The position numbers and the translations under genes were made by a program. Under the pieces are notes generated by a model. That model was not told the DNA's origin. It saw only the letters and a program-made list of their open reading frames with translations, and ran no database searches. Below, in pieces: positions 1 through 63,900 of a stretch of DNA of 64,000 nt. Position 1 is the first letter of the stretch; each line of letters opens with the position of its first letter. The stretch is from Tribonema minus (lineage: Eukaryota; Sar; Xanthophyceae; Tribonematales; Tribonemataceae): NCBI GenBank assembly GCA_017506865.1, contig JAFCMP010000235.1, positions 310,001 through 374,000 on the forward strand. Reading direction: 5' to 3'.

Positions 1-49
1 TTTTTTTTCTGACCTTGGCAGATCAACTGGCACAGCGTATTCCACAAAA

Positions 50-240
50 CCATAAAACGCTCAAAAGCTTGCACACGCAAGCCTTTTGGCTCCTGTGGAT
101 ATGGTGACACTGTTTGACTGTGGCCGATTGCCACAGCAGCGGCGACCACGGTCAAATGGTGGAACGCATTTGCAGCCGGCCACACCACCTTGTCACCTAG
201 AGCTCTACAATTTTTTGATTCGTTTCCTCAACACTCTGTC
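50..240. repeat. Dispersed repeat A, copy 1
   Basis: This copy lies in the transporter intron at the window's left edge. It is about 75-80 percent similar by eye to copy 2 over about 190 bp. Confidence 0.75.
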
Positions 241-331
241 TCCATGATACTCTGTTATTTTTCTTGCAGATTGACTGGCACAGCATGTTCCACAGAAACA
301 TAATATCCCGTGCTTGTTTTGCCCTGAGCAG

Positions 332-549
332 ATCAACTGGCACAGCGTGTTCCACAAGGGGCGCGACGTCAATGTGCTCAGCGCGGCGCGCTTCTGGCTC
401 TTCGGCTCGCGCGACGTGTGGTTCGAGATCGCCCTGCCGCTCTTCCTCGCCAACGGGTTCGGGTGGAGCGACGCCTACGTGGGCCTGTTTTTGGGCGCGT
501 ACGTGGTTGTGTACGGCAACCTGCAGGCCTTCTCCACGAGCCTGTACAA
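332..549 (+). CDS. arsJ: ArsJ-like exon (first visible)
   Basis: The acceptor is gccctgagcag at 321-331 and the frame starts with ATC. The exon ends AA|GTGAGC, phase 2. It holds the NVLSAARF and GSRDVWFE segments and one membrane helix. Two decayed copies of the acceptor plus exon start lie upstream (18-55 and 261-300). Seven copies of the exon end plus donor lie downstream. Confidence 0.8.
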
Positions 550-3500
550 GTGAGCGATTCACCAAGTATGAGTATGAGTATGAGTATGAGTGAATCAAAT
601 GTTTTCGGGCATATGGTCGTGTACGGCAACCTGCAGGCCTTCTCCACGAGCCTGTACAAGTGAGCGATTCACCAAGTATGAGTATGAGTACGAGTACCTT
701 TGAGTGAATTGCATGTACCATATAGAAGTACGTGTTTGTGGTTGGCAACTTCGAGGCCTTCGTCATGAGACGTGAACGAGTGAGGGAGTCAACGAGTACA
801 AGTATGAGTGAGTCGCGTGTTGTTCCTGGGGTCGTGTACGGCAACCTGCAGGCCTTCTCCACGAGCCTGTACAAGTGAGTGACTCGTCAAGTATGAGTGA
901 ATTGCATGTTCAAGAAGGGCATTTGTGCGGGTGAAGCGACGCCTACGTGGGCCTGTTTCTGGGGGCGTACGTGGTCGTGTATGGCAACCTGCAGGCCTGC
1001 TCCACAAGCCTGGAAAAGTGAGCGAGTCAATGAGTTTGAGTGTGAGTGAATCGCATGTTGAAAGCGCATACGTACGTGGTAGTGTACGGCAACCTGCAGG
1101 CCTTCTCCACGAGCCTGTACAAGTGAATGACTCACAAAGTATGAGTACAAGTATAAGTATGAATGAAACGCATGTTTGGGGGCGGTGTACGGCAACCTGC
1201 AGGCGTTCCCCACGAGCCTGTACAACTGAGCGACTCACTCAGTATGAGTATGAGTATGAATGAGTCACGTGTTGTTCCTGGGGTTGTGTACGGCAACCTG
1301 CAGGCACTTGCCGCCCACTTGTCATGCTCATAGCGACACCAACAGCTGCCACCAAGATTGCAGCCATGGACTTCTGCCAATAGTCTAATCACCTGCTGCC
1401 TGTTTCTTTTATCACGGCTTCAAAGGAAGGGCACCGATGGCTTGCTTGGCTGGCCACGGCCTCAGAGAGGCAGATGCCCAGTCTTCACGCTTACAGTGCC
1501 CAAAAGCCGCCATCGATCCTACCTACATCTGGTGCTGCTGGTTGTCTGATGCGCTGATACTGCCACCGCGCACGTGTCCGTGGACCGTCGATCGATGCAG
1601 GAAGGGCGCCGGCGGCGTGCTCCTCTGTCGCTGGCCTCAGAGCATCAGATGCCCAGTCCTTACGCTCACAGCGCAAAATGCTGCAACCAATCCTACAGCT
1701 TCTGATACTACTGATGCTGTCTGTCGGTTTCGCGGCACCACAGGAAGGGCGCCGACGGCGTGCTCGGGCGGCCCCAGCCGGAGAGCGTCTCGCGCTGGGC
1801 GCTCGGCTGCGCCTTCATCCCCGCGCTCACGGGCACGGCGCTGTACTTCACGTACGACGCGCACGACCCCACGGACAACGTCGCGAGCATCGTGGTGCTG
1901 TGCGCCGGCATCCTCGCGTTCTCCGCCGTCTTCGCCGTCAACTCGGCGATCCACTCGTACCTCATCGTGTCCTTCTCGGACCAGGACAAGGTGTCGCAGG
2001 TGAGCGCGCGCGCGCGCTCTGCGGAGCGCTGCTGCGGGGACTTGAGACGCCAGCGCATGTTGATGTTGAAGGTTTATAGTATAGTACGCTGTGCTTTGTT
2101 ACATGTCTGAAGTATCGCGCGGAGCCGCTTTGGCAATTTTCCTTGTGCTTATCTCATCGTCCTGTTGATTCTACTACATGAGCAACGCCGGCGGGCGCCT
2201 CGTGGGCGTCGTCCAGGCTATGTCGGCCTAATATAATCGCCACTATGATACTTTCTATTGTGTCGTGATTTGTGTATCTGCACAGGTACTCAGCAGCGCT
2301 ACTCAACACGCACGCCCTCCGCTCCTGCAGGACGTGGGCTTCTACTACGTGAGCAGCGCACTTCGATGCCTCGTGGGTGTCCCCCCGAGCGCTGGTGATT
2401 GTCCTTGTCAATCTCCACTTACGATCCTTCCTTTGATGCGATGATTTGCGCATGTGCGCCTGTACTCAACAGCGCTGCTTGATACACCCACCCCGCCGCC
2501 GCCACCGCCCCCGCTGCAGGACGTCGGCTTCTACTACATGAGCAACGCCGGCGGGCGCCTCGTGGGCGTTCTCCTCGGCGGCATCGTATACCAGTACAGC
2601 GTGGACGAGTACGGCCTGTCCATGGTGCTGTGGGTCGCGACCCCCTTCCTGCTGCTGTCGGCGCTGCTGGGGGGCTTCCTGCGCGGCGGGTGCGTCATGT
2701 TCTTGTGGATTGCACACTTCAAGTAGAAGTTGAAGTACTGCATTTGTGCCAGCAGTAGATGGACGGCGTCATGTCCAGTGCATCCATGATCACGTCTGCC
2801 GCGCACCTGCCGCCGCTCCCTGCCCCCCTACCCCTCCCCCCACACACACACAAACACACACACTCACACCACTCCACGTCCTATGCTGACTGACCCGCCT
2901 CGTTGTGTCCCCCCGTACATGCACCTTGGAACTCTTGTGCGCTCGCCCCCCCCCCCCCTATGCTGTGACTGGCTGCCCTCGTCGTGTCCCCCCCTGCGTG
3001 CACCTTTGAGTTCTCAAGCGCGCCTCAAGTGCGTGACGGAGTGCGTGTTTTTAGTACCAGCGGTACGCGCCCCAACGGCAGGTGCGCGTGTGCGCCGCGG
3101 TGTCTTGCCAGCACATGACAATGTGAACGAGCCCTGCTGCAAATTGGCAGCGTGTTCACAAGTGCCTGAGGCGGTGCTTTGTAGCAGTGCGTGCTCGCTG
3201 AGCTTCGCCAGCGACAGTGCACGCCTCAAAATGCCCGTATCTGTGCCGTGCGCACGACTCGTCAGTGCTGCTGCAATGCTCGCTCACTCCTCACTGTCAA
3301 AGCGGGGGTTTACATGCATCACGTGGCAAAACAGGTGCCCTCTGCTTCGTGGAATTGCTATACCGGGCGTTACTGCAGTTTCTCCCGCTGAGCTGCTTCA
3401 GCAAACTCCTCTGCTAACACCAACACGCATACCCTCCGTGCGTCACAGGCGCTTCGACACGCAGACCAAGAAAAACGACGGCAGCAGCGAAGCGGACGAC

Positions 3501-3638
3501 GCAGCGCTGGAGCCTCTGGGCAAAGAGCGCAGCCACGCTGCCGTTCACGAAGTCGTTGCCGCAGCGCCTGTGTCAGCGCTCGACGCCAGCGCCGGCGGCG
3601 CGCCTTCGCAGTACGAGCTCGTGAACAAGGGACTGTAA
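332..3638 (+). CDS. arsJ: ArsJ-like MFS transporter, C-terminal half (5' partial, 4 exons)
   Basis: Spliced exons are 332-549, 1744-1999, 2520-2689 and 3449-3638 (stop TAA 3636-3638), joining in phase to 278 codons. The first exon reads NVLSAARFWLFGSRDVWFEI and the third DVGFYYMSNAGGRLVGVLLG. Both are close to the second-half signatures of bacterial ArsJ, a roughly 400-residue major-facilitator permease that exports 1-arseno-3-phosphoglycerate. About five hydrophobic segments are visible: one in exon 1, two in exon 2, two in exon 3. The N-terminal half must lie upstream of the window. The last exon adds a hydrophilic tail of about 60 residues that bacterial ArsJ lacks as far as I recall. Introns are GT-AG. 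The family match is from recognition, not a search; another MFS subfamily is possible. A bacterial origin by transfer is inference. Confidence 0.75.
1744..1999 (+). CDS. arsJ: ArsJ-like exon (second visible)
   Basis: The acceptor is ccacag at 1738-1743 and the donor is CAG|GTGAGC. The exon encodes KGADGVLGRPQPESVS followed by two hydrophobic helices and the loop AIHSYLIVSFSDQDKVSQ, which matches the central part of ArsJ's second half. Two decayed acceptor-side copies precede it at about 1424-1470 and 1594-1642. Confidence 0.8.
2520..2689 (+). CDS. arsJ: ArsJ-like exon (third visible)
   Basis: The acceptor is ccgctgcag and the donor is GG|GTGCGT, phase 2. The exon encodes DVGFYYMSNAGGRLVGVLLG, then a final helix LSMVLWVATPFLLLSALLGG. 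Two truncated copies of its acceptor and 5' part lie in the preceding intron (about 2170-2219 and 2323-2386). The downstream intron 2690-3448 holds a C run at 2946-2958 and a tandem repeat of about 90 bp (2885-3025). Confidence 0.8.
3449..3638 (+). CDS. arsJ: ArsJ-like terminal exon
   Basis: The acceptor is cgtcacag and the frame is set by the phase-2 donor at 2689. It encodes a charged, non-membrane tail that begins RFDTQTKKNDGSSEADD and ends YELVNKGL before TAA at 3636-3638. The stop overlaps a TGTAA pentamer. TGTAA is the usual poly(A) signal in green algae, but here it is too close to the stop to be convincing. Confidence 0.7.
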
Positions 3639-4572
3639 TTTCATGTAGAGGTATTGTAGCCGACAGGACCGCATCATGAGAAGTAGTTAGTTCAGGCAGC
3701 CGTAGACTGGCGTGGCGCTTCCATGCATTGCGTGGGTTAGTTCTTCAATCTTGAAGTATGGTCGTTGATCGGTACAGTGAGCCTCCATAGGCGGCAAACC
3801 AGGCGGTGCTGCTCCACAGCAACGAATGTATCATCATGTTCCCGATCTGACCGGCGCGGTGCTGCCCGTGTCGGCTGTTGTCTTTTTGCTGTTATGTCAA
3901 GCATGTGACAGTGGCCTGCCACTTGCAGAGTGCTGGTTGTGTTGGGTTGAACACAATCAGCAGGCATTAATCAGCAGCCTAGGGGGGTGTCGAGGCCTTT
4001 GCGGGCCCTCGTCAGATGCTACTTGAAATAGACCAATCCACTTCTGGGGATGCGTACACACAGTTTTGATCCCAGCGAAGGATGCATATGTTTATGCGCA
4101 TGCCTGCCGTGCAGTGACGTGAAGTGACGCTGTTCCGACGGGACTGACTGCTGAGCGCAATCAGTAAGCAGTGCAACGTGATCATCTCAGACATCGAGCT
4201 TCAACAGGCCTTGCGGGCCTTGTCAGATGAATATATGATCAAAGCACGGCCATCCAATTCTGGGAAGCGGAAGTGTACACAACAGCCAAAACCTTGGCTA
4301 AATAAATACCTTCCTGAAATCACCTTTTTATAAATGGGTATTCAACTTGAAGTTCTATGAATTTATTGAAGTGTGTGAATTTATTGAAGTGTCGTGTAAA
4401 AGTGTGTATGTCTGTGCACGAGTGACTGTGCTGCTGTTGCATTGAGAGGAGCCTATGTGGTGGCGGCTGGATCCCGGCGCGACACTGATCAGTAACGCGT
4501 GTCGCGTGGCACACATGCGTACGACAGAGTTTGACACTTGAAGGATCTGCTGGAGAACAGCGGTGTGGTGAC
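3639..4572. other. Intergenic region between the transporter and VPS13
   Basis: There is no supported gene in this stretch. It must contain the transporter's 3' UTR and the VPS13 promoter and 5' UTR, but I see no confident TATA box or poly(A) site. It contains a direct repeat pair of about 80 bp at 3984-4062 and 4198-4282, each with an aggcct..gcgggcc core, a weak hairpin, followed by gtcagatg. Confidence 0.5.
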
Positions 4573-4675
4573 ATGTTTGAAAGACTGCTTGCGAGCATAC
4601 TCACCAGCGTCCTGGGTGAGTATGTGGAGAGCAGCAGCTTCAGCCAGGAGACCATACGGCTGGGCGTGTGGAGCG
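4573..4675 (+). CDS. VPS13: VPS13 exon 1 (start codon, chorein N-terminus)
   Basis: The ATG at 4573 is the first in its frame, and MFERLLASILTSVLGEYVE aligns with the family's start (MFE..V...L..YLG.YVE). The exon ends RLGVWSG at G|GTGAGC, phase 1. Codon use is less GC-rich than in later exons. The following intron, 4676-5282, shows nothing recognisable. Confidence 0.88.
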
Positions 4676-7600
4676 GTGAGCGAACTGCAACATTCCGAAA
4701 TGCAGCAAGATGTGACCTGCCGTCTAGTGATGTATGTGGATGAGCAAGCAGAGCCGATTGCTGGCCAGACATTCAGTATCAGTCATGCACGTGAAATGCT
4801 GTGACAGCAAGACTGAGTGCTTGCATGGTTACGGGTGGGGTCACTTTTGTGTGATATAAAGCAACATGAAATCCGAGCTGGTATGCGAACGCACGAGTAA
4901 CACGGCTTGGGCGTTGCGACACCTTTGTCCTCAGATGACTTTTTAAAAACCGGGCTTGCAAGTGGCAAGTGGGCAGCTTGCAGAACAGTGGGCGGATGCT
5001 GTGAGGATTGGCAACCAACTCTCATGAATCACAGAGCAGCTATCCGCCAGTGTTTCTCGCAGCAGCACTTGGCATACCAGCCATGCATACCTTCTGCTAT
5101 TCTGACATACATCGGTTGTCATAGCCATTATCTTATGAAAAACATTCTGATCCTGCACATGTCGGGCCTCGAAAACCTTCATGCCACAACTTCAACTTGA
5201 GGCCTCAGTTCGAAAGCTCCCAGCTGATGCAGAACCGCCCTCAACACCCAATCCCACGGCACCGCTGACTACGCACGCGCAGGCAACCTCGTGCTGGAGA
5301 ACATGACGCTCAAGGCGAGCGTGCTGGATCCCGCGCAGCTGCCGCTGGAGCTGCGGCACGGGCGCATCGGGCGGCTGGAGTTGAAGATACCGCTGACGCG
5401 CCTCGGCACGGACCCGATCGTGGCGACGCTGGAGCACGTGTACGTGGTGGTGGTGCCCAAGTACGAGTGGGACGAGGGGGCGCGCGCGGCGCGGGAGCAG
5501 GCCATCAAGCGCGCGAAGGCACGTGCACGTTGACTTTGAAGTGTAGGGTTGAAGTATGCAAGATCATGAAAGCGGAGCCTGACTGACGTCAAAGTGTGTC
5601 GGGAGTAGGCCATCAAGCGCGCTAAGGCAAGTGCACGCGGAGAAAGAACTAGCAGTCGACCGCATGGCTGACTTCAAAGTATAGGGATATAATATGCAAG
5701 ATGTCCATGATTAGGGTTGCCAAAACCGTACCTTTTTTACAAATATACTCCGTAAATCGTACCGTAATTTGACCGTAAACTCCTGCCTATTGAGGTTTTG
5801 GAGAACTTCGATACCATTTTTGCGTCTGGCACAGTAAGCCCGAAGATAAACCTCAGGGCACCCGAAGCTGTGGTCAAGATCAGCATGGTTTACGCTACAA
5901 ATACCGTTGACCGTATTTTTTCAATAATACCGTTTTGGCAACCCTATATGATAGTAAGCGGAGTTTAAATTTCACCGCGATAAGCGGAGTTCTGACTTCA
6001 AGGTCCGTAGGGAGCAGGCCATCAAGCCCGCCAAGGCAAGTGCATGTGGAGGATGAACTGGCAGGCGACAGCATTGCTGACTTCCAGTACTTTGAAGTAC
6101 AAGATTGGAGTGTGCGCGAACTTCCATGATAAGCAGAGTCATGACCTCAAAGGGCGTCGAGAGCAGGCCATCAAGCACGCCAAGGCAAGTGCACGCGGAA
6201 GATGAAGTTGCAGCGGGCCGAGCGTTGCTGACTTTGGAAGTAAAGGGTTGAAGTATGCAAGATCATGAACGCGGAGTCTGACTGACGTCAATGTGCGTCG
6301 GGAGCAGGCCATCAAGCGCGCCAAGGCACCTGCACGCGGAGGAAGAATTGCTTATCTGAAAGTAAAGGCTTGTAGTAGATTTTCCAAGGGTTTCCATGAT
6401 AAATGGAATTATGACCTCAAATCGCGCAGGAAGCAGTTCATCAATCGCGGCAAGGCAGGTGCGAGCGGAGGAAGAAGTAGAGGCGGTCGACGCGCTGCTG
6501 ACATTGAAGTAAAGAGTTGAAGTATTTTGATATTCTAGTATCAGGAGAATATTGACTTGAAAGCACGCATGGGGCATGCCATCGACCGCGCCAAGGCACA
6601 TACATGCGTACAGGCAAGACGGCAACAGCGAACTGGTTGCTTCTTAAGAGGTATTCAAATACTTGTGGCAGTTGTGCTATTGCAACAGGCCATTCAGCAC
6701 GCCGAGGCACGTGAGGACGGCAGAGTGAGAGTCGGCGGCTGACACTTTTGCGAGCTGAGATCATGAAGTAGTACTTCAAGTAGTTGAAGTTGGACATGGT
6801 CGCTCCCAGTGCGTCAGCAGAACCTGCCACTGGCTCTGTTGATAGCAGAGCCGTGAGACACGTTGTAGCAGTTGCAACTGAGGTGTAAAATGATAAGTGT
6901 CACTCCACTAGCAGCTCAAGCAGGCGCCGGACTTCTCAGCAGCAGTAGCAGAAGTGGCACAGTAGCAGTAGACAGCTCGCAAAAATAGTTGATCTGAGGC
7001 AGCGATACCTGACGCTGATTGCATAGGCGCTGTTGCTACAGACGCACTGCGCCTGAGTCTGCTCTCAGGGGCAATGTTCTTCGTCCTGTAACAACAGAGC
7101 TGTTGACACCTGTTACTGTCTGACAAGCTACTGCGGTATTTGATGAAGGCCCGCTCAAGGGTCGTTGCCAGCTAAATGCCGCTTTCAGCTGAAGACTTGC
7201 ACTCTACTACAGTGGTCGAGGGCTCTGAATCAGAGTGCAAGGTACTGCACGATTTCACTCTGATTGACAACAGCTGAAGACGTGAATTCTGGTGTATGTC
7301 TGTAATGAGAGTGCGCACAATTGCTTGAGTTTTGAGAGCAGTCGAGCGCTGATCTGCTGCCCGCATTCGATGCACGCCAGTGCTTCGCGTTGCAGCTGAT
7401 GGCGCATCAGCAATGTTCAGGAGCTGCACACTGCGATGGCAGTGAGCAGCGATGGAGTACGGTTGATTGCTTTCCGACCGTGCGTCGCGTTGTCGCTGAT
7501 GACGCATCAGCAATTGCGCATTGCAATTGCAGTGAGCAACAACGGAGTAGGGCATGAGAGCTGCTGGACAGCGTGTCGGTTTTGCTGTGCTTGTGTCGAT

Positions 7601-9914
7601 TTCTTGCTGATGCACAGATCGCAAGTCATACTGAAGGCACACCCCTGAACTGAGCCAACAGGAAGATTGCTTTACAATGTTTGTCTTTCGTCTCGTGCGG
7701 GATAGGACTAGTCTAGAGCTAGTGTGCCAGAGCGAAGTGCGCCTTATGAAGGTCTTGATTCACCTTGTCATAACGTGGTAGAAGAAGACGGTCTTGTCAA
7801 GAACATTCGGGTGTACAGCAACGTTCTTCAACTATACAGCATCATCTCTATCTTGACGTTGAAGTGTGGATCTTGCAGTGTTGCAGATTTCGGTTCACGC
7901 GGCGCAACAGGAGCACCTGCGACTTCTAATCCGAATGCCGTGTGATGCTGCTTCATTGACTGCTTTGCTGGTGTGGCAGATCCCCACGGCCGAGCTATGC
8001 ATTAAAGCTTCAACTTCACCTTCATTTTTGGGCATCTGCTTGAGTAATCGTTGCTGATATGTACGTGTAGCTCTGCAACTGAGCGATGTTCTCTTGCCGC
8101 GCCGATCGCCTGCTGATGCGGCAGATTGCCGCGGCTGATCTGTGTTTGAAGAATCAGAGTTTGCTTTGAAGTTCGGGGCTCTAATAAATGTGGTATCTGT
8201 AGCGTTGGAACTGAACTATGTTTTCCTGCCCCGTTGATTGCTCGCTGACGCGGCAGATCGCCGCGGCGGAGATGTTCCGCAGCAGCATGCTGGCGGTTGA
8301 GGGGGAGGAGAAGCAAGGGGGGAGGTGGGGGAGCGCCGCTCAGCAGGTATGTATGTATGTACGGGGCAGCTGAGGAGCTTTTACACCGCTCGTGCACACT
8401 GTGTGTGCTCGAGACATTCGTCTCGTACTTTACAAGTACACGCATATGTTTAAAATGTCGCACTCACTCATCTACTTCTATGATGTTTGCGTTTGTGTGG
8501 GGGATTGATGCAGCGAGCGCCACACACCTCAAGTGGAAGCTGAAGTACTGCATTCATGCCGTGCGTCAGGTGCACATCTCACAGCAGCAAATGGTTGGCA
8601 TAATGTCAACGGCGTCCATGATCGCCTTCGCGCCATGCCTCCCCCCCCCCCCCCCCCCACCCCCACCCACAACCGCACGCCCCGTTGCATCTGCAGTGGC
8701 TGCAGCGGCGCCTACTGGACAGGCTCGTGGACAGCGTGCAGGTCCACGTGCGCGACGTGCACGTGCGCTACGAGGACGCCGTGTCGAGCCCCGAGGCGCC
8801 GTTCTTCGTGGGCGTCACGCTGGAGGCGCTGCACGCGCAGTCCGCCGCCGCCGCCGCAGCCACCGCTGCCGCCGCCGCCAAGGAGGTGTGTGCCATGAGC
8901 TGATCACGGATCACGCGTGATGCCGAAAGGCATGGTGTATACATGAGACCGAACAGTTGGTACATCGAAGCATCTTCTTACTCGATTTTACCTTTGGTGC
9001 ACAGCTGAGGTGGTTGGCTACTATGCCGCTGCCGCTGCCGCCGCCGCCACCGCCGCTGCCGCCGCCGCCAAGGAGGTGTGTGTCTCATGAGTCGGATATG
9101 TGCGTGGCGCGAGCGCCTCATGCTGCGTGTTCTATGGCGCTCAGCGTTCTCTTGTGCTTGCGAGTACATACTTGGAGTGCGCCATATGCTGGTCGGTCTG
9201 TGCTTGCGGCTGCTGCTGCGGCGGTTTGTCATCTGCGGGCGTCACGCTGGCGGCGTTGAATGCACAGTCCGTCACCGCCGCTGCCGCTGCCGCGGCCGCC
9301 AAGGAGGTGCGTGTCTCATGTTGAAGCATGTTCCGCAGGCAGCACCAGGAGTGCCGCCAGTCCTGACGTGCCTCGCGGGGATTTGCTTGAGTACCGCCCA
9401 AGAAGTCGTCTGCTGGTGCTGGCCTACTCACTTCCTGCATTCCGGTGCAGCAGAGCTACTTGTACGTATCTGCATGTGCGGGAGCGGGGAGGGGGGGGTG
9501 GGGGCAGGGGCTTGACGATCCTTCCAGACGCGCGCATGCAGAGGATCTGCGCACTCTCATGCGGTCTCGCGGGCATGTGTAATGCACATCTCAGCTGCGG
9601 CACTGCCGCCGCTGCGTAAGCAGCGCAGCACCGTCGTCGCCACACCACCGCCGCCGCGCACACTTGCGCTGCCCGCTCTCACCCTCGCGTCACCGCCCCC
9701 GCGCCGTGCGCCGCCACCGCCGCCGCCGCCGCAGCACGCGCGCGGCGGCACCTTCACCAAGGAGGTGCGCGTGCACCAGCTCGGCGCGTACTGGAACGCG
9801 GACGAGATCGGCAGCCCCTGCAGCATGCACCTCGCGCGCCTGCCAGCGGAGGAGGCGTACATGGTCATGCAGCGCCTCGTGCCGCGCCGCGCCGCGCGGG
9901 AGGCGCTCGAGCGC

Positions 9915-9945
<31 letters not shown>

Positions 9946-12900
9946 CGCAGCAGCAGGCGGCGGCGGCGGCGGCGCTCGCGCGCGCCGCGGCGCCGGCGCT
10001 CGCGCACCGCTTCGTCGTCGCGCCGGGTGATGCCGTCGCAACGGTGACGCTCCCGCGCGACTTCAACGACAGGTAAGAGGGCGAGGAGGGCATGCGGATG
10101 CTCAAAGTCTCTGCATGCGCCAGCTGCTGTGATCTTGCGCCGGAGAGCGGGTCTGGGAGAGTGGCGGCATCGGCAGCCGTGACCCCTGCGCTATCACCCT
10201 TGCGCCGACGCGTGTTTTTGGATGCCACTTTTTAGGGGGGTATGGTTAGGGCTAGGGGTGACGTGCCGCCGTGCCTGTGGCAGCACGTGAGCGTCTTGTC
10301 CGCTGGGCTGCTGCGCGAGGCACCGTTGCTCTTAGCGTCCGCCGCGCTGCAGGAGGTGTCCCCGGGCGTTGTTTGCGTGTGCGCCAACGGCTGCTGCGAA
10401 CCTGCGCTCTTGTGCCGCTCTGTGCGGTTCTTAACGCTGTTGATGGAGTGAGCGAACATCATCGCGCCGTTGCGTTGGTAATGCTGTATGCGCTGCCTGA
10501 TGTCGCGGCATCTGCGAGCTCATGCGCACCAGACGGTGACAGCACGAGCGCTGAGCGCTGCTGCAGTGGCGATCCTCGCGGCCCTGCATCAGTGCGCCGC
10601 ATCGCAGGCGGCGTCACCGCAGTGACGCTCCTCTGGGCCATCACACGCCTCCTTCGCATCACTACTGTTGTGTGGTGAGTGTGGTATTCACGGTGTTCTC
10701 ACGATGCGCTGATCGCTGCTGCAGGAGCGTGCCGATGGCGCGCGTGACCCTGCGCCTGGAGGCGCTGGCAGCGCGCTTCGAGGACTACCAGTACCGGGAC
10801 GCGCTGTGCCTGGCGGCGGCGTTTGCGCAGTACCAGGTGAGCAGGCCTAACACTACCAAGAAGTCCTAACCCTAATTAATACCCTAGAAGTACCACTCGA
10901 GGCGGCCGCACACCTGGCCCTAATCCAACCCTCCGGGCCAGGCGTGTCGCGCAGTTGCTGAACTGAAAATGGATATGCAATGGTTTGCATGAGCAGCAAA
11001 CTTCAATATCTTGGGCAGCCGTCGTGGTTTCTGAGGCCTTCAGAAATACTCTCTGTTCAACTTCAGTGATTCACCCCATGATGCGATTGAAGCGTCACTT
11101 GAGCATTGCTCAGTGCAGCGCTGCCGGGCACTCGCCCTGACTCATTCGACGACCCCGCCAGCGCTTGCACGCTCACCTTTCGAGCGTAGCACCTGCCTAC
11201 CCGTGCACCACATGCCTACATACCCCTACGCAGTCATACATACATACCCATTGTGCACTGCATACTTACATACCCCTTCTGCAGAGGCCCTGGAGCGGCA
11301 CAGCGCGCGGCGTGCGCAAGCGCGCACGAGAGGCCCTCGCGCTGCGGCCACTTACACATACCCCTGCGCACTGTCATGCCGACACACTCCTACACACCCC
11401 TCTGCGCTACGCAGGCGCTGGAGCGGCGCCGCGCGGGGCGACTGCGCGTGTGGCATGTGTGTCGACCCCGCGCAACCACACGCACATACCCGCGAGCACT
11501 GCGTGCTACATGCTCCCCTGCACTACGCAGGCGCTGGCGCGGCCGCGGGTGCACACTTGCGCTCGCATACCCCCCTGCACTGCACAGGTGTGGAGTGTCA
11601 CAGCACGGGGCGGCCGCGCGCGCGCGTGCGTGAGGACCCCGCGCAATCACACATACATCCCTGAGCACTGCATACCTGCCTACCCCCCCTGTGCAGGCGT
11701 TGGAGCGGCACAGCGCGGGGCGGCCGCGCGCGCGCGTGCGCGAGGACCCCGCGGCGTGGTGGCGCTACGCGTGCGGCGCGGCGGCGGCGCGCGTGCGCGA
11801 GCGCCGCGGGCGCTGGCCGCTGCGGCGCACGGGCGAACGTCGGCAGGTGCGCACCCGTGCATGGCTGCAAGCGCAGTCGCGCACAGCAACGAGCACATAT
11901 CCATATCCCATGCTCTCAGCTGCAGTGTGCAGTTTTCAGTGTAGATGAGTGATGGCGGCGCGCATGCGCGAGCGCCGCGGGCGCTGGCCGCTGCGGCGCG
12001 CGGGCAAGCGCCTACAGGTGCGCGCGCTTGGCTGCGGCACGGGAGCGTTTGTTCACGCGCAGAGGGAGGCGCATCGCCCAATCCGTGCTCTCGGTTGCAG
12101 CGCTCGATCAGTACTGTCAAGTAGCAGAAATGGCAGTGCGGGCATCGCGCTGCACTGAACCTTCATTTCACTCCTGGTGGCGCTACGCGGGCGCTGGCCG
12201 CTGCGGCGCACTGGCGAGCGCCGTCAGGTGCGCGCCTGTGCGTGGCAGCGGCGCGAAAGCGCAGTCGCGCGCAGAAACGAGCACATATCCATGTCCCATG
12301 CTCTCAGCTGCGGCGTACAGTAGTCAGTGTCGACGAGCGATGATGGCGGCGCTGTGTAACACTGGCACCAGCCAAGCTGGTGCATAGGGCGGGCGCTGAC
12401 AGGGGGCGCTGCGCGACAGATTACCGCTCGTTCTACTTTTGCTCTCGGGGAATGTTGCTCATGCCGATGCCTGTTCTGAGCGCGCGTGGCAAGCAGTAGT
12501 ACAGCAGCAGATACGCCCGCCCGTGTCCCCTGCCAAGCCCGCGCCATCGCCACGCACGTATCATTTGCCTCCTGGATGCCCGTCGCCCTCCGCTGCTGCA
12601 ACGCCTTTTGACACCCGCCGGTTTTGCAATAACCCCGGAGCGCCAGTTCCTCAACGTAGTGCGCGTGCGCCCTGTTTCGCTGGCGGGCACCGCTAAACTG
12701 GCTTTTGTGGCGCGCTCGCTCGCCAGTCGCATAGGTCCCCAACTCACACTTGAACACCTTTGAACCGAAGCTCATGATTGCTGGCTCTGCTGCTGTGTCG
12801 TCGCAGCTGCGGCGCGAGTACTGCGCGCTGTGGACGCAGCACATGGGCTGGATCAACGCGGCAGCAGACGGCGCCGCCGCCGCCGCCGATGCGCGGCGGG

Positions 12901-48900: not shown

Positions 48901-51900
48901 TGGATCGACGGCGCCGCGCGGCCGCCGCGCGCGCTGCTGCCGGGCGCGGAGACGGCGCTGCGCTTCCCCGCCGCCGCCGCCGCCGCTGCCGCCGCCAGCG
49001 CGTTCGACGCGTGGTCAGGGGCAGAGGCGGACGCCGCCGTGAATGCGCACGCGCCGGCGGCAGCGGCAGCAGCAGCGCTCAGCGCCGCTGCCGTCCCTGC
49101 CTCCGGCCCCAGCCCTAGCCGTGGGGTTTGGGTGGCGGTGGAGGGCGCGGCCGCGGGCGAGGCGTGGGTCAGCGCTGCCCCAGTGCTCATCGACAGCGCC
49201 GCCGCCGCCGCCGGCGCCGCGACCGTGGTGCGGCTGGTGCCCAAGCGCGCACCGTCGGTGGCAGTGGCGGCAGACGCTGTGGCGGCGGCGGCGGCGGCGC
49301 CGGAGCCGGCGGTGCTGCGCGCGCTCGCGGAGGTGCGGCGCGCCGGCGGCGTGACAGTGCTCAGGATCGCGTCGTCGCTACGCGTCGCCAACGCGCTCGC
49401 AGTACCGCTGCGCGTCTCGCTGCGCGCCGCCGCCGACAAGCTGCACCCGCGCCCTCCACCCTGCTGGGAGGGGGTCGTGGAGGCGGGCGGTGACCCCTGC
49501 GCCGTCCCCCTGTTTGCTGCTGCTGCCGCGGGCCCGGGGGCGACGCTGCTCGTGCAGCCCGCGTCGGATGGCGATGACGACAACGGGTGGGATGCTGTGT
49601 CTGTAGAGCTGCCGACAGGCGGCGGCGGCGGCAGTGGCGGCGGCGGCAGTGGCGGCGGCGGCAGTGGCGGCGGCAGCGTGCTCTGGCGGCAGCTGCGCTT
49701 TTTGCCGCGCGACGACGGGGAGGGGCGGGGGGCGCCGCCGATGCGCTGCGTGCTGAGCGCAAGGATGGGGGTGGCGGAGGGGGCAAGCGGCGCGCTGCCA
49801 TCGCTGCTGCTGACGTTCGCCGCTCCGGTGACTGTGGCGAATCTGCTGGCGGCGCCCGTGTCGGTGCAGGTAATGGAGCAGGTACGGCCGAGACAAAAGC
49901 AAAGCAAAGCTGCACCTACCTACCTGTCCTGTTGGTGTTGAACTTCATGCTGCATCTGCCGCAAGGAGGTATTATTCGCTTTTGTATATACACATGTCAT
50001 CTTGGCTACTCGTGCCTTTGCGTCTGTTTATGACACTGTCAGTACGTCGGCTGGCTCAGTTTTGTAAGGCAAGCTGATACGGTCGCTGCTGAAATTGTCT
50101 TCTGTTGGCCCTTGTGGACAATTGGCCCCCAGAACGCAAACAGTGTCTCGCAAATGCCACATCTGCCTCACAGCAACCTCAACTCTATCCTCGCTTCTAC
50201 TTCAACCAACACCACGCTTCCTCATACATCAACACCACGCTTCCTCATTTCTTTGACTCTTGCAACCAGGGTGTCTCACAACCGCTGGCCGAGGCCTCGG
50301 CGCATTCTCCAGAACTTTCCATCGAGAAAGTTCTCGGCGTCGGTCAGCAGGCCCAGTGGACGTCCTGCGGCGCGCAAGAGCCGCTGCTGCTGTCGCTGGC
50401 GCTCGGCGGCTGGCCCCTGCGGGGGAGCGCTGACGTCGCTGCTGCCGCGACGCGTACGCGCGGCAAGGTGAACTTCAACTTCATCTTCTAGCGAGAGAGA
50501 CTACAGGCTGTGGATGTGCACGCTAAACACAACGGCATGACCGCTTCACTGCCTGCTTAACACACCCACCCCTGTTGCTGCGCCTGTACTATCATCATAT
50601 ATGCTATTACTTTAGAAGTGAGCATCATCAGATCCGCTTCAATCAGATCCGCTTCAATGATAAACGTTGTGCTGCCCGCGTTGCGTCCTTCGCGCCCGCA
50701 CCAGAAGGGCGCGGCGGAGCCCGCCGGCGATGCGTGGCAGCGCGGTGCCGCGATCGTGATATATCTATATGAATTGTCATGACACTTACGCTATGATGAT
50801 ATATACATGTGCTGTTATTACATAGACTTACACTATCACGGTATGTGCTGTTACTCGCTTCAAGTATAGCTTACTACTTCTATATTCTTTCTCAGATGTG
50901 CCTTGAAGCTGAACGTTGCGCTGCCCGTGCTGCATCCTCCGCGTGCACGCCAGAAGGGCGCGGCGCAGCCCGCCGACGACGCGTGGCAGCGCGGCGACAC
51001 CAGCAGCAACGGCAGCAGCTCGACAAGTGTGGCAACGCTCATACGGGAGGACGGCGCGGAGCTGCACGTCCAGGTGCTGCCGCTTTGCTCAGCTTGTGGT
51101 TGATGTCGTGTGTATAGGTGAAAACACATGTGTTCGATGTCATGCATTGCTGAGACGTTCGGTTGATGCCGTGTGTGTAGCTGAGACATCCAATGATGTC
51201 GTGTGTGAAGAAGTGTGAGCAACGCGCGATGGCAAGGCGGGCACGCTCTGACGCAGGCGCCTTCGGTGAGACACGCGGTTTGCGCAATGGTGGTGTGGTG
51301 ATAAACGTGTATTCTGCGTGAAGGGAGAAGGTGCAGTGGACAATGAAATGCTGCCTTGACATGCAGCACCAAAGTTGTCATGCAGGGGCACTGCCTTGGC
51401 TCTGGTGGTGCAGACGCTGCTCGCACATTATACCAGGCGATAACGGCGGCTGGTGCTGCTTGATATACATGTATGCACAAGAGGAGGCGGCGCTGCTACA
51501 GTAGCTGCTTCAATGTGAAGTATGTGGCATGTAATTCTTTAAGCCCGTGTTGCAAACCGCGACGCTGGCACTGCAAGCCCTATCCCCAACCCCTGAACAT
51601 TATGCTCATTGCATGGCACTGCGATTACTAACCCTATCCTTGAGCACATTCGTCGCCCTCTGCCAACGGCGGCTAGCTGCGGCGCCGCAGCACAAGCACT
51701 GCACACACCAAAGCCTGATGATGATGTTCAACTTGTATCTTAACAAGTTAAAACGATGGGCGCGCAGGTCGAGACCACGCGCAACACGCACGGCGCACTC
51801 GACGTGAGCCTCTGGGTGCCCTACTGGGTGGTGAACTGCGCAGCACTGCCGCTGGAGGTCCGGCACGCAGCACAGGTACGCGTTGAAAACGATACCTACC

Positions 51901-57900: not shown

Positions 57901-60900
57901 GGCGCGGAGGTGGAGCTGCATGCCTCGTGCAAGCCAGGACTTGAAGCGTTCAGCTGGACCGCTGATGTACCCCTGCGCCCCGTGGTCTGTTCGGTACGAC
58001 TGGGACGCCGCATGAGTTGCTCCAGGCCAGTGCCATGACCCACGACAGTTTTCAAGAGTAAGGACCAGCTGGCCTTCCCTTCTTCTACAATGGACAGCAC
58101 TGTGCGTGCTTTCTTGTCGGCCTTCGGTCCAGAGCTTTGTGCTCGCCGTGCCTCCTCTTTTCTAAGGTTCCACGCATCTGCTGCGTCGCTGCTCAGCGCA
58201 CAGTGCAGGCACTTCAGCTCTTCATGCAGCAGCACTCAAGTGCTGGACCTAACCATGTAGAAGTACTTCGGAGTTACACAGAGCGCAAGCGATGTACAAC
58301 CAAAACAAGCACCGTTTCAATGAACCAGGAGCGAAGTGCATGCTCTCTGCATCTCACATTGCGACACGACGGAGCGAGTTCACCATCGCGAAGAAGTCGC
58401 TGCAAAGGTTCCCCCTGTTGCAGTCACGTTATCAAGATGCACGCAGCTGCTCTGTGCTGAGCACTGCGCTGTCGCCTTTGCCCGCATCGCAGTTCGCCTG
58501 GGACGCTCCGCTGGGCGAGCACATGGTCGTCGTGCAGGTCGACGCGGGAGAGTCGCCGCCGGAAGAAGCGCCGCCCGCGCGCATCATAGGCGTCTTTCCC
58601 CTGGACCAGGCAAGCGGACAGCAATAAATTCACCCAGTAGTCATCACTCATGGCGGCGCTCTGTCTTTGTCATTGCCGCACTGCGGTGTTACCAGCAGTG
58701 TGTGTCCTGTCACTGCTGGTGAAGCACTGCTGCGCACACGCAAAAACTCCCCGCCGTACAACAGGTCACTCCTGCTCACGGGCCCGCTGCAACTGCTGCA
58801 GCAGCGGCGACCACGGTTATTGGTGGAAGGCACTTGCGGCTAACCATCCCTTATCTCCTACAGCTCTACGATCTTTTGATTCGTTTTCATGTGGGTGCGC
58901 CGCACTCTCCACACCATACCGCTCATGTAACCACGAACTGCTCATGAAACACCATGCGTGAGCGCTGCCGTGCCGACACCACGAGTACACTGTACACCAC
59001 GAGTCCACTGTACTCCGGACCTGAGCTGAACCGCGCACGACGCCATTCGTGTTGGTGCGATGCGCAGGTGCGATCGTTTCCGCGCACAGGGCCGCTGTGC
59101 GCGCGCGTGGAGCCCGAGGGCGCGACGCGCGTGCTGCGCATCACCAGTGCTCAGCAGGGCGAACCGCAGGTGCAGGTACGCCCAGAAGTACAGGGACGGA
59201 TTCTCAACGCGCATCAAGACACTTGCGCGTTTTCACCAGACGCATGCAGATTATGGTAGCAAGCTAGACATCTGCCATCTGGGCTTTTTCGCGCCTTCTC
59301 AGCGGGAATCAGTAAGAACTAGAGGCACTCGCTAAGCTGCAATTTGTAAGACATGAGGAGGCGCAATGCTGTTGTACTTTTGAAGTATGGATTATGCTTA
59401 CTGCTAGCACCCACTCTAGGGTCCGCTGCGCGCGCGCGTGGAGCCCGAGGGGGCGATGCGCGTGCTGCGCGTCACCAGTGCTCAGCAGGGAGAACCGGAA
59501 GTGCAGGTAGGCTTCAATGTGAACAACATGAGGCTCAATGCTGGTTTACAGTATGGACTATGCGTACCGGTCCGGAAATGCAGGTACACCTAGAAGTACA
59601 GGCACTCGCTACGCGCCAACTAGACAACACGAAGCGCAATCCTCCCTTTACAATGTGGACTATGCGTACTGGTAGCACGATTCAAAGGTGCAGGCCACGA
59701 GCGCCGGGAGGTGGGGAGTTGAACTTTGATTCCAAAACCTGGGAGATCGCACTTAATGAATCTTAGCTGCTGGAAGTGCATGTTAGGGCTGCATTGCTCC
59801 TGGTCACCGTTTGCTTGTTGCAATGCGTGCGTGGGGATGTGTGCCTCCCACTCACATAACGGTACGGACGGACCTGTGCAGATGTGCTGTCAGCAATATC
59901 CCACGTAATGGCTTGTCAGCCTTGTGACAACACTGTAAGCCGCTGACCCAGTACATGGTGATGGCCCGCACGTTGTTGAGACCAGCACCACGTCTTCTTG
60001 AATCCTCTGCAATGTTTCCCCTCATTCGCGATCTGAGACGATTCCTCTGTGCATTTTCCATACAGAAAGTGACGGCTGTTCCACCTCTATGATCGCCTCT
60101 GTTTCACCCGGCGGATTGCATCTCCTCACCCATGTCTCCGCGACGCCTCTCCGCTCGAGCGCGGTCACAAGGCGCTTCACGTCACCCACCTACTTATATG
60201 TATATATATACGTGTATACAATGTAGACAACTATTTGGTATATATGTATGAACTGGCAAGTCTTCAAGCACTGCTCTATACGCGCGCCCCCCCCAGCCCT
60301 AACCCTAACCCTAAAACCTAACCCTAATCCTAACCCTAACCCTATCCCAAATGACACCTGCTCACTCACGAGTCACGTCACGCGCTCCGCTCGCAGGCCC
60401 CTTGTGCCCTGTCTCAGACTGTCCAGGGTATTACTATGGTAAGCGACAGTGTAGCACCGCACTTCCTAATCTCCCTTTCCAGCTGCCAAATCACACCTCC
60501 TCACCCATGCCACATGCTCCGCCCGCAGGTCCCTCGGCGCACGACGCCTGCGCCGCAGCCGCTGCTGCTGACCGTTGCGCTCGGCGGCGTCGGACTGAGC
60601 ATAACCGAGAGCGCGCCGCAGCCGCGCGAGCTGCTGTACGTGCTGGCCGCGAACTTGGGTCTTGCGGTGACGCGCACCGCCGACGCAGGTGCGCACGCCA
60701 GCTCCTGCTGTGATGCGTGATGAGAAATGAGGAATGAAGTGAGCACGGTTCGAGCACCTGAAGTACGTCTGCGCACGGACGAACAGGAGATGTTGATTCG
60801 TGTGAGCGGCGACGCGCAGCACTGATGCAGGTGCTCTGGCCAACGCATGCCATCATCGATACCCACAACGGGTATACAGAGTATACTTCAAGTACTTGAA

Positions 60901-63900
60901 GTCATTAGGATTGAGAACCTACAAGGGCCCAAAAGTAGCGGATTGAATTCTGCTGTGAAGCATTGTTTCAGCCCACATGCACCGACAAACCTCTCGCATG
61001 CTATGCTGATCAATCTTGTTCAGATGGCTCTGAGCGAGGCAGCTGCATGTGGACACACCCCTGTCAGTGTATCTTCTAGGTTGAACCAACAATGCTGCCC
61101 AAGATGCAACCGCTCGCCGCTTTTGACAGACGTCGTCTGCTGCCGTTACAACAGTTTCCTTATGCACCATTGCCCTGTGCTTGCAGATCTGGTGGAGATT
61201 TCGGTTGGGCGGCTGCAGGTGGACAACCAACTGCCCCTCACGCCGTTCCCGGTCCTGCTCAGCCCCGTCGAGGTGAGCACGTACTTCAGAGTTGAAGCAT
61301 GCATTTTTGCCATGCACAGAGGGCAGGTATGACACTGTAAGACATTGTAAGACATTGTGAGATGATGTCTTACATTGAGCCCTTGAGTCCTAGGAGGGAA
61401 ACCTTTGTTGGAATATGCGAAAGGTTCAGCGTAAGACACTCTAAGACATTGTAAGACACTGTAAGACAATGTCTTAACTTGAACCTTTGAGCCGCAGGAG
61501 GGAAACTTTGGATGGGAGATGCGCCAGATGTGAGCATTGCCAGGTCCCTTGTCGCCAGGCCACCTATTATCTGCAACACATGCTGGTCAGTGACCCCCGT
61601 GTTTTGCAACAAAGTCACCAGACGTTCTCACTGCCGCCATCTCATTGAGGAGCTCATTGGTATACATCCAGGTAGGTATATTGTAGGCCTGCAGGTGGGT
61701 ATGCACGCATGCGCGGTTCACTCCCCCCTGAGAATTGGGCCTGCCCTGCACATTCCTTTCGCAGGTTCACCTAAACAAGTCCCTGCTTGCTTCAGAAGCT
61801 ACAGCGACTGATGCATCCTTTGTGAGGCAGAGGCCGTCGCCGCAACTGCTCGCGCATCCTGGCCCACGCTGTGTGTGCAATGACATGCGCAGTGACGCCG
61901 CTCCCTTCATCTTCATGCATCACCCACCGCCTGTTGCCCCGCGTCTGCAGAGCCGCGGCTATGGGCAGCAGCAGCACACGGCTATGGCGCGCACGGCGGC
62001 AGCCTGCGTTTCGACGCTCACGCCCGGTTCCGGCGACGCCACACCGGTGAGTCGAATGTGATCAGTGCCAGCAACACTCTATGCCATAACTACATAATGT
62101 ACGTGTGTACGCCCGGTGAGAGCTGTTGCGCTTGACATAGCAGCAGCAGCAGCAGCAGCACACGGCTCTGGCATGCACGGCGGCGGCCTGTGTCGCAACA
62201 ATGCCACCCGGTTTCAGCGACGCCACAACGGAGAGTCGGATGTGTTCAGTGCCGACACTCGATGCGTGATTAGTGCCAGCACTCTATGCCAGAACTACAA
62301 ATGTATGTGTACGCCCGATGAGCGTTGTTGCGCTGGACGTGACAGCAGCAGCAGCAGCAGCATACGGCGCTGGCGCGACGGCGGCGGCCTGCGTCGCGAC
62401 GCTCCCGCCCAGTTCAAGCGCCATCGCGGTGAGTTACATGTGATAAGTGCCAACAACAGTCTATGCCATAATTACAAAATGTACGTGTACGTCCGATGAG
62501 CGCTGTTGCGCTCGACATAACAGCAGCAGCAGCAGCACACGGCGCTGACGCGCACGGCGGCAGCCTGCGTTGCGACGCTCCCGCCCGGTTCAAGTGAGGC
62601 GAGACAGACGTCATTAGTGCCAACAGTATGCCAGAACGAACTGTATGCGCAAGCCGGAATGAGCGCTGTTGCGCTTGACGCAACAGGCACTCTCACACCG
62701 CCGTCTTGTCCTTCCCGCATCAGCCGCGCCTTGTATCCGGAGCTGCCTCCGCGGCGCCTGCGGCGCCACAGCGCTGACGGCACCAAAGCCTTCACGGCGC
62801 GATTCTGCACCGCTACCCCACGCTCTAAATTATGCTATCTTGCTATGACCCAGTGTGCAGTCACACCGGCCCAGCCGTGAGCGCGGCCTCTCCGCCATAG
62901 CCCGCCGCCGCTGCCGCTGTCGCCGCACTCGCGCTGGCGCACGCAGCAGCCCCGCACACGTGCTACACATACCCACCTACCCTTTGCCTCACTCACACCA
63001 AAAGCAACATGTCCTGCCTTCCTGCTGCAGTCTCGGCCCCCCGCCACCCTCGAAGTGGTCACCTGGGGTGACTTATTTGGCGGCCGCAGCGGCGGCAGCG
63101 GCGACAGCGGCGGCGGCAGCGGCGGCGCCATGTGGGTGCGCTCCGCCGTGGTGCGGCTACGGCCGCTCGACGTCAGCGCTGACGGCGCGCTGCTGCTGGC
63201 GCTGGGACGGTTCTACGGAAGGGTCTCCGGAAACTTCGACGGCGCAGACGTGAGTGACTCTATATAGAAAATGCTACAACTCAGGTCATCAGGCCTCAGG
63301 GGTGTTGGGAACCGGTATTGCAGCAGGGGGAGGGTGTCTTGGTTGCAAGAAAGCAGACTTGGAATGTGCATGCCTTTCAATGCACAGCGCAAAGCCAACA
63401 AGTCGGCTGCCGCTGCTGCCGTGCAGTGGCGCGCGCCCCTCTCATTGGCTGTGCCGCTGCCGCCGATCACTTTCATGCTCGTTAACAGAGAATTGTAACT
63501 CGATTGTGACTTGCGATGCAGGCCAGTTGCAATGCATACATCCTCACCATGCTCGGACAAGGTCTCACCCGTGTATCGATCTCTCCGCCGCGCAGCCCGC
63601 CGCCGCCTTCGAGGACGCCGCCGCCGCCGCCGCGCCGCAGTGCGTGGATCCCTTCGCGGCGCTGCAGCTGACGCCTGCCGCCGCGCAGCGCGTGCCTGTC
63701 TCCGCTGAGGCGCCGTCGGGCAAAGTGTACGTGGAAGCGCTTGACATCTCGCCGCTGCGCCTGCGCGTCAGCTTCTCGCTGAGCGCCGCCCCCGCCGCCG
63801 CCCCCGCCGCCCCCGCCGCCGCCGCCGCCGCCGCTTCGGAAGCGGCGCCGCTGCCAGATGGGGGGGCATCGCTGGGCGCAGCAGGGGGGCAGCGCCTGCT

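Follow-up and report, generated by a model that had tools for sequence, protein, structure and literature searches.

Exon-edge copies in introns of the alga Tribonema minus suggest intron lengthening by recurrent local duplication

A stretch of 64,000 nucleotides from the nuclear genome of the xanthophyte alga Tribonema minus, hereafter the window, corresponds to C235:310001–374000 (contig JAFCMP010000235.1) in a genome of 158.18 Mb and 554 contigs. According to our gene model, the window holds two genes, the 3′ part of a gene for an ArsJ-like MFS transporter and most of a VPS13 gene. Many introns of both genes contain decayed copies of the edges of their own flanking exons, together with the adjoining splice sites, and the origin of these copies is the subject of this study.

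The modeled transporter exons lie at 332–549, 1744–1999, 2520–2689 and 3449–3638 on the forward strand, as do all exons and copies of the window given below, and the VPS13 gene begins with an ATG at 4573 and extends past 64000. Gene models were built with a small codon-and-splice Viterbi program trained on exons picked by eye; manual re-bounding and removal, mainly of short or zero-length predictions within introns, reduced its 128 ab initio exons to 63, with 61 introns. Two transporter introns are supported by the homologous protein P0001 (66% identity, 83% of the query covered), whose alignment is gapless at both joins, and parts of VPS13 are supported by Pfam, the remaining joins being ab initio. 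The spliced start of the VPS13 gene (465 residues) matched VPS13_N with an E-value of 7.4e-61, and a later piece matched VPS13_VAB with an E-value of 5.7e-18. A Pfam scan of two unspliced frames across the first 15 kb of the window returned VPS13_N alone, and a plasmid search with one exon gave no match. The GC content is 74% in exons and 57% in introns, and the median intron length is 680 bp.

To identify copies, flanking exon edges (up to 60 exonic and 30 intronic bases) were aligned to the remainder of the same intron, and a copy was called when the match spanned the junction and scored above the best of 60 other introns and 20 dinucleotide shuffles. A junction-spanning copy on either side was found in 31 of the 61 introns, with donor-side copies in 23 and acceptor-side copies in 18; one of the 31, the intron at 17576–18712, passes narrowly on both sides. 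A first-pass annotation of the same DNA had proposed such copies in at least 20 introns of two genes between 550 and 63030, and both the observation and the range hold. When each exon was compared with every intron and one intergenic gap, 54 same-strand matches fell in adjacent introns and followed a strict polarity. All 36 matches in downstream introns derive from the exon 3′ end, 30 of them within 2 nt of the donor and the other six at 5–21 nt (overall range 0–21 nt), and all 18 in upstream introns derive from the exon 5′ start, 14 within 1 nt of the acceptor and four at 4–13 nt (overall range 0–13 nt). This is the arrangement that the first-pass annotation had described, and it is what a duplicated unit straddling the junction would be expected to leave. 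The same comparison gave no antisense matches in adjacent introns and 11 weak exon matches in distant introns of the window.

The copies derive from their own exons. Probes of 40 bp placed the own intron at the top of the ranking for 23/56 donor edges and 15/56 acceptor edges, and wrong-side probes did so in 1/56 and 2/56 cases, where chance predicts 0.9. A junction-spanning unit also predicts that the intronic flank is duplicated along with the exon edge, as is the case in 36 of the 54 copies (26/36 donor, 10/18 acceptor). The copied exon parts are short (7–93 nt, median 36), their identity to the exon ranges from 0.76 to 1.00, and paired copies lie at offsets of 72–807 bp, mostly below 400 bp. 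Self-comparison of the window yielded 90 direct repeat pairs, 87 of them within 2 kb, versus 2 inverted pairs, and a looser cut-off inside introns gave 135 direct versus 20 inverted pairs.

In the transporter gene, exon 332–549, whose P0001 homology spans both following introns, is the parent of six donor-edge copies, the maximum in any single intron, at 600–659, 830–874, 925–1017, 1071–1122, 1185–1225 and 1282–1305. Exon 1744–1999 has an acceptor-edge copy at 1601–1622. The start of exon 2520–2689 recurs at 2169–2209 (identical, without the acceptor) and at 2331–2380 (with CAG); the intron that holds these two falls outside the 31 because its best match does not span the junction.

Within the VPS13 gene, exon 5283–5518 carries a GC donor, and its four donor-edge copies at 5600–5626, 6010–6035, 6153–6184 and 6299–6325 (span 5600–6336) retain the GC. 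An acceptor-edge copy of exon 8257–8346 lies at 8066–8138, and donor-edge copies of exon 8697–8885 occupy 9032–9306. Exon 11697–11846 is copied on both sides, with three acceptor-edge copies within 11287–11643 and donor-edge copies at 11958–12035 and 12186–12227, as is exon 14750–14970 (acceptor edge at 14352–14589, donor edge at 15094–15135). Downstream of these follow an acceptor-edge copy of exon 17104–17259 at 16948–16987, two weak and marginal matches at 17753–17776 (donor-edge) and 18502–18520 (acceptor-edge), and donor-edge copies of exon 18713–18825 in a 94-bp tandem unit at 18894–19013. Donor-edge copies were also found for exon 19509–19839 (one, at 20091–20140), exon 20494–20654 (three, at 20713–20961) and exon 22445–22566 (one, at 23078–23104), and an acceptor-edge copy for exon 21776–21910 at 21586–21649. 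Exon 23810–23932 has an acceptor-edge copy at 23482–23530 and donor-edge copies at 24023–24070 and 24211–24246. Acceptor-edge copies of exon 25749–25861 lie at 25396–25446 and 25558–25620, and those of exon 27227–27385 at 26921–27085; the 3′ end of the latter exon recurs at 27460–27517 with just 2 nt beyond the junction, in an intron outside the 31. Exon 27948–28102 has a donor-edge copy at 28233–28259, and exon 28580–28788 an acceptor-edge copy at 28465–28504.

Exon 29564–29693 combines an acceptor-edge copy at 29408–29486 with three donor-edge copies at 29825–30252. Single acceptor-edge copies belong to exon 30803–31005 (30623–30709) and exon 32515–32680 (32354–32389), the latter with two donor-edge copies at 32799–33006. 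Both edges are likewise copied for exon 34085–34209 (acceptor at 33882–33931; donor at 34364–34422, 97% identity), exon 35717–35807 (acceptor-edge copies at 35213–35586, donor-edge copies from 35944) and exon 37108–37377 (acceptor at 36945–36983, donor at 37548–37600). In the remainder of the gene, donor-edge copies were found for exon 40387–40490 at 40833–41097, exon 44935–45077 at 45132–45329 (a GC donor), exon 45880–46909 at 47018–47108, exon 59068–59175 at 59418–59512 (90% over 93 bp), exon 60529–60688 at 60806–60850 (76%) and exon 61951–62046 at 62149–62679 (three copies, in units of ~184 bp), and an acceptor-edge copy of exon 50954–51073 lies at 50675–50745.

Decay was measured in 42 distinct copies that were long enough on both sides, drawn from 73 junction-crossing repeat pairs. 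In the exon-derived part, 234 of 1831 sites (0.128) are mismatched to the real exon, and in the intron-derived part (nearest 60 bases) 333 of 1887 sites (0.176) are mismatched, giving a Jukes–Cantor-corrected exon/intron divergence ratio of 0.70 (bootstrap 0.56–0.85). By our own expectation, the ratio would be 0.5 if the copy alone were free to change, and up to ~0.7 with silent changes in the exon. Among 19 indels, 18 shift the frame, and codon position 2 is mismatched at 50 of 609 sites; by our reckoning, almost no changes at position 2 and indels that preserve the frame would be expected under coding constraint. Roughly the observed pattern of mismatches and indels is predicted by a free copy combined with silent drift of the exon. 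The copies thus decay near-neutrally, and the decay with indels reported in the first-pass annotation is borne out, 44 of the 54 copies having less than 0.95 identity to the exon.

The splice sites carried by the copies are mostly intact. GT or GC is retained in 32 of 36 donor copies and AG in 15 of 18 acceptor copies, and 18 of the 36 donor copies equal or exceed the real donor in score under our generic matrix. Since these decoys are so often as strong as the sites in use, position and not strength presumably decides splicing. The parent junction reads AG|GT or AG|GC for 25 of the 36 donor copies, and 21 of the copies still read so. The gene model contains GC-donor introns at 5519, 45078, 55925 and 58610, and the copies at the first two are also GC.

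Comparison with a paralogue places the copies in time relative to the introns. Contig C112 carries another ArsJ gene with the same intron positions as the transporter gene of the window, and the introns of this paralogue hold 16 acceptor- and donor-side copies, with 12 in the introns of the window gene. For all 28 copies the own exon is a better-scoring match than its paralogous counterpart. Shared intron positions together with own-exon copies indicate that the introns of this pair are older than the arrays and that the arrays arose separately in each gene. The claim that each array derives from its own exon is supported by the paralogue pair as well as by the wrong-side probes.

Another gene on C112 encodes XPD (ERCC2), with Pfam domains HBB, DEAD_2 and Helicase_C_2. 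Its best named matches are proteins of Chrysoparadoxa australica (77%) and of jgi Undpi1 (74%), the latter taken from its name to be the brown alga Undaria. Together with the rbcL-like fragments described below, these matches agree with a photosynthetic, probably red-plastid stramenopile on the brown-alga side of that group. At the exon ending in VCFFTSY, a stretch of 71 bp across the donor is repeated identically 72 bp further on (L011:8460 and 8532). The unit comprises the exon end (17 exonic bases), the donor and the first intronic bases, with microhomology of at most ~1 bp by eye, and it looks like a fresh event. The proteins of three relatives are collinear across this junction. A second XPD intron contains a 76% repeat pair that begins 10 nt before the donor (L011:7306).

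Self-BLAST of whole stretches overlooks identical pairs close to the main diagonal in some cases. The XPD unit, for example, was absent from its output at all three word-11 settings and at one word-7 setting, and repeat and array counts based on self-BLAST, in the window and elsewhere, are therefore lower bounds. Identical pairs were present in 13 of 23 sources according to an exact-match scan (at least 30 bp within 400 bp), and the idea that recent events are rare was dropped as a result.

To place the window in a wider context, the ab initio model was applied to 22 further 10-kb stretches from five contigs. Regions that flank the window or contain the ArsJ paralogue account for four of these stretches and contribute 3 of the 49 introns examined. 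Junction-spanning copies occur in 17 of these 49 introns between well-supported exons (12 donor, 6 acceptor). Donor polarity recurs there, 20 of 22 same-strand matches lying within 2 nt of the donor and the others at 6 and 21 nt. Exon matches in distant introns numbered 32 at these loci.

Dispersal was assessed by searching two arrays against the whole genome, skipping simple repeats and very common words. Each was found only at its own place and at its parent exon, without dispersed matches: the donor-edge copies at 29825–30252 were found nowhere else, and the ArsJ array additionally matched 45 bp of the paralogue, at the equivalent exon edge. As a positive control, the same search applied to a 171-bp dispersed repeat returned 2045 first-look candidates, which implies that a large dispersed family of arrays would have been seen. 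The first-pass annotation had set the arrays apart from introner elements, and for the two searched this distinction holds.

We consider it very likely that recurrent small local duplications, mainly tandem, lengthen introns in this alga, and that those straddling a splice junction persist because splicing continues to use the outermost sites. Under this explanation, small duplications of ~70–400 bp, mostly tandem, would arise repeatedly in nuclear genes, presumably by slippage or break repair. Where the unit straddles a donor, the upstream original would stay in use and the extra exon end with its donor would fall into the intron; where it straddles an acceptor, the downstream original would stay in use and the extra acceptor with the exon start would become intronic. 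The protein would remain unchanged, so that the event would be near-neutral and could drift to fixation, leaving a longer intron in which the copy decays. Duplications internal to exons would be cleared by selection, and those internal to introns would remain and blur. The view that splicing in this species uses the outermost sites draws its support from the collinearity of proteins with those of relatives. The proposal of the first-pass annotation that introns lengthen by repeated junction-crossing duplication and accumulate decoy sites is supported, and a mechanism aimed at junctions is not required for it.

Several results weigh against this explanation or limit its reach. No intronic continuation is detectable in 18 of the 54 copies, some of which may be non-tandem or trimmed. 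Probes from exon middles ranked the adjacent intron first in 6/56 and 3/56 cases, above the chance value of 0.9. Mismatches at codon positions 1, 2 and 3 number 83, 50 and 101, an uneven distribution (p=0.0002); the excess at position 3 can be explained by silent change in the exon, and weak constraint on the copies may contribute. Introns with copies are longer than those without (medians of 945 bp, n=31, and 597 bp, n=30; p=2.6e-5), a gap that supports growth without proving it and is partly circular, because longer introns give more room for copies. At the other loci, a looser exon cut-off lowers the share of introns with copies to 20 of 78, the four acceptor-side matches begin 12–53 nt from the called acceptor, and three antisense matches lie in own introns. 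The exon-against-intron test found a copy in one of ten XPD introns, and this low number implies that copy load varies between genes. Finally, the junction-crossing arrays of the window exceed every simulation of blind duplication, as set out below, and this excess hints at something beyond blind duplication, within the assumptions of the model.

The window contains 22 donor-crossing, 18 acceptor-crossing and 18 interior arrays, along with 3 exon pieces without a junction, so that 40 of 58 arrays (0.69) cross a junction; at the other loci, 17 of 32 cross and 15 of 32 are wholly intronic. Splice junctions might accordingly be preferred targets of duplication, for example where transcription, R-loops or the exon–intron GC step promote breaks or slippage. 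Such targeting would refine local duplication and is compatible with it, and we regard it as possible, though on the unlikely side. A forward model with blind duplication gave crossing fractions of 0.16–0.61 in 39 replicates, whereas weighting junction units 3–5 fold gave 0.61–0.76 in nine, a range that includes the window value. Identical detection was applied to the simulations, making the comparison with observed arrays even-handed. At intronic identities of at least 0.75, 0.80 and 0.85, crossing arrays in the window number 31/47, 25/38 and 17/21, compared with fractions of 0.23–0.59 over these thresholds in nine replicates of an age-matched blind model (0.30–0.59 at 0.85). The other loci, however, fall within the blind range, both overall and by identity (12/24, 11/23 and 9/16); exon-anchored copies stay recognizable for longer; and the simulations assume the ancestral intron length, unit size and decay rates, with most blind runs ending in introns shorter than the window median. 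Most blind runs also produced longer copied exon parts than those observed; large exon pieces may be under negative selection as potential pseudoexons, or the assumed units may be too long. Arithmetic with uniform placement decides nothing between blind and junction-directed duplication, as the 40 crossing arrays compare with 19.0 expected at current intron length and 25.5–48.2 for ancestral introns of 500–200 bp. The interior arrays indicate that no junction-aimed mechanism is needed; blind duplication with purifying selection on exons may suffice to explain all observations, and a bias toward junctions is possible but unproven. A stronger version, in which junctions are duplication hotspots several times above intron interiors, introns grow mainly by copying of their borders, and intact decoys, many of them AG|GT, perhaps serve the stepwise (recursive) removal of long introns, appears distinctly unlikely.

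The remaining explanations compete with intron lengthening by local duplication. That the copies are relics of intron birth by tandem duplication of exonic AGGT, as in the Rogers and Gao–Lynch model, would agree with the AG|GT or AG|GC junctions behind 25 of the 36 donor copies and would need the same type of mutation; it is very improbable, because the paralogues share intron positions with independent arrays, which makes the introns older than the copies, and because two thirds of the copies (36/54) include intronic flank. Slightly less probable still is a role as functional alternative, mutually exclusive or poison exons, to which the retained GT, GC and AG dinucleotides (32/36 and 15/18) and the donor scores (18/36 as high as the real donor) would lend themselves. 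This retention is about what 0.9 identity leaves, the copies consist of an exon fragment with a single splice site, and their near-neutral divergence ratio, out-of-frame indels (18/19) and changes at position 2 (50/609) indicate that they are not alternative exons. RNA evidence for the use of the copies as mutually exclusive exons had been named in the first-pass annotation as an observation that would overturn it, and this point is answered in part, in that the behavior of the copies is not that of coding exons. An origin from introner-like or other mobile elements inserted in introns is extremely unlikely: the dispersed 171-bp repeat does sit in introns here, and introners are reported in PMC9860276 as disproportionately common in aquatic lineages, but the two arrays searched are not dispersed, the copies match their own exon, and antisense copies are absent from adjacent introns of the window. 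An assembly artefact could produce an identical unit such as that in XPD, but 44 of 54 copies lie below 0.95 identity to the exon and carry indels, and assembly cannot produce polarity relative to splice sites, so we regard this explanation as negligible. The corresponding concern of the first-pass annotation is likewise answered in part, since divergence of several per cent and frameshifts are unlike assembly error.

Tandem exon duplication, including that of mutually exclusive exons, repeats exon sequence within an intron; the copies described here differ in being partial exons with one splice site and little sign of coding constraint. Tandem duplication is an established cause of new introns according to PMC3443670 and PMC4974935, which relate the tandem-duplication intron gains of Gao and Lynch 2009 and Hellsten 2011. 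As outlined there, a duplication within a gene is likewise tolerated through removal of the additional copy by the spliceosome, but an exonic AGGT segment creates a new intron, whereas in T. minus the unit straddles an existing junction, the position stays fixed and the intron lengthens repeatedly (31/61 and 17/49 introns). Introners (PMC9860276) are also repeated sequences linked to introns; unlike them, the arrays here derive from their own exons, and the two searched are not dispersed. Dual-specific AGGT sites and recursive splicing (PMC10809524) resemble the tandem AG|GT or AG|GC sites still read in 21 of 36 donor copies, which are here candidate sites. In Drosophila, intron sliding or tandem duplication explains how introns came to lie at new positions in 5 of 31 cases (PMC2891723); partial exon duplication near introns is common to both, while the introns studied here lengthen at fixed positions. 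Literature searches of an open-licence collection returned work on intron gain by tandem duplication and on introners, but no title or abstract opening that described exon-edge arrays lengthening introns genome-wide, which is not proof of absence. On the favored explanation, a known class of mutation acts in an apparently undescribed role, the lengthening and not the birth of introns.

Intron lengthening is usually attributed to transposons and drift. In this system the source of new intron sequence is directly readable, as the exon-edge tag gives its origin and direction and, through decay, its rough age. One genome then allows measurement of how fast introns grow, of how well the spliceosome tolerates duplicate sites close by, and of the rule by which the outermost sites win. 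The copies also carry a warning for gene prediction, as decoy exon ends gave many false short exons in our own gene finder.

Other repeats were noted in the same sequences. The ~171-bp dispersed repeat, SINE-like (short interspersed nuclear element) in size, lies in introns at 39818–39988 and also at 55–225 and 58799–58886; the best 40 of its 2045 first-look candidates were scored and are, apart from itself, 88–92% identical. The intron at 37378–39617 contains an imperfect inverted repeat (74%) with arms at 37637–38281 and 38489–39150, and a genome search with one arm found the two arms only. Interstitial telomere-like TTAGGG tracts lie at 40145–40201 and 60297–60348 and are otherwise scattered, the motif occurring 29 times in window introns versus 0–5 times in shuffles. 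TTGAAGT occurs 40 times in window introns (1–3 in five shuffles) and twice in exons, and ACTTCAA 26 times in window introns (0–5 in five shuffles) and three times in exons. Among the other stretches, L010 holds a dense local repeat array at 1–3822 with units of ~390–410 bp (95–97%), and L012 holds many exact short repeats at 4354–7681 with offsets of ~134 and ~204 bp. A RuBisCO search returned two degenerate fragments in the nuclear contigs C334 (L003) and C112 (L004), which we read as red-type rbcL and which are probably old insertions of plastid DNA.

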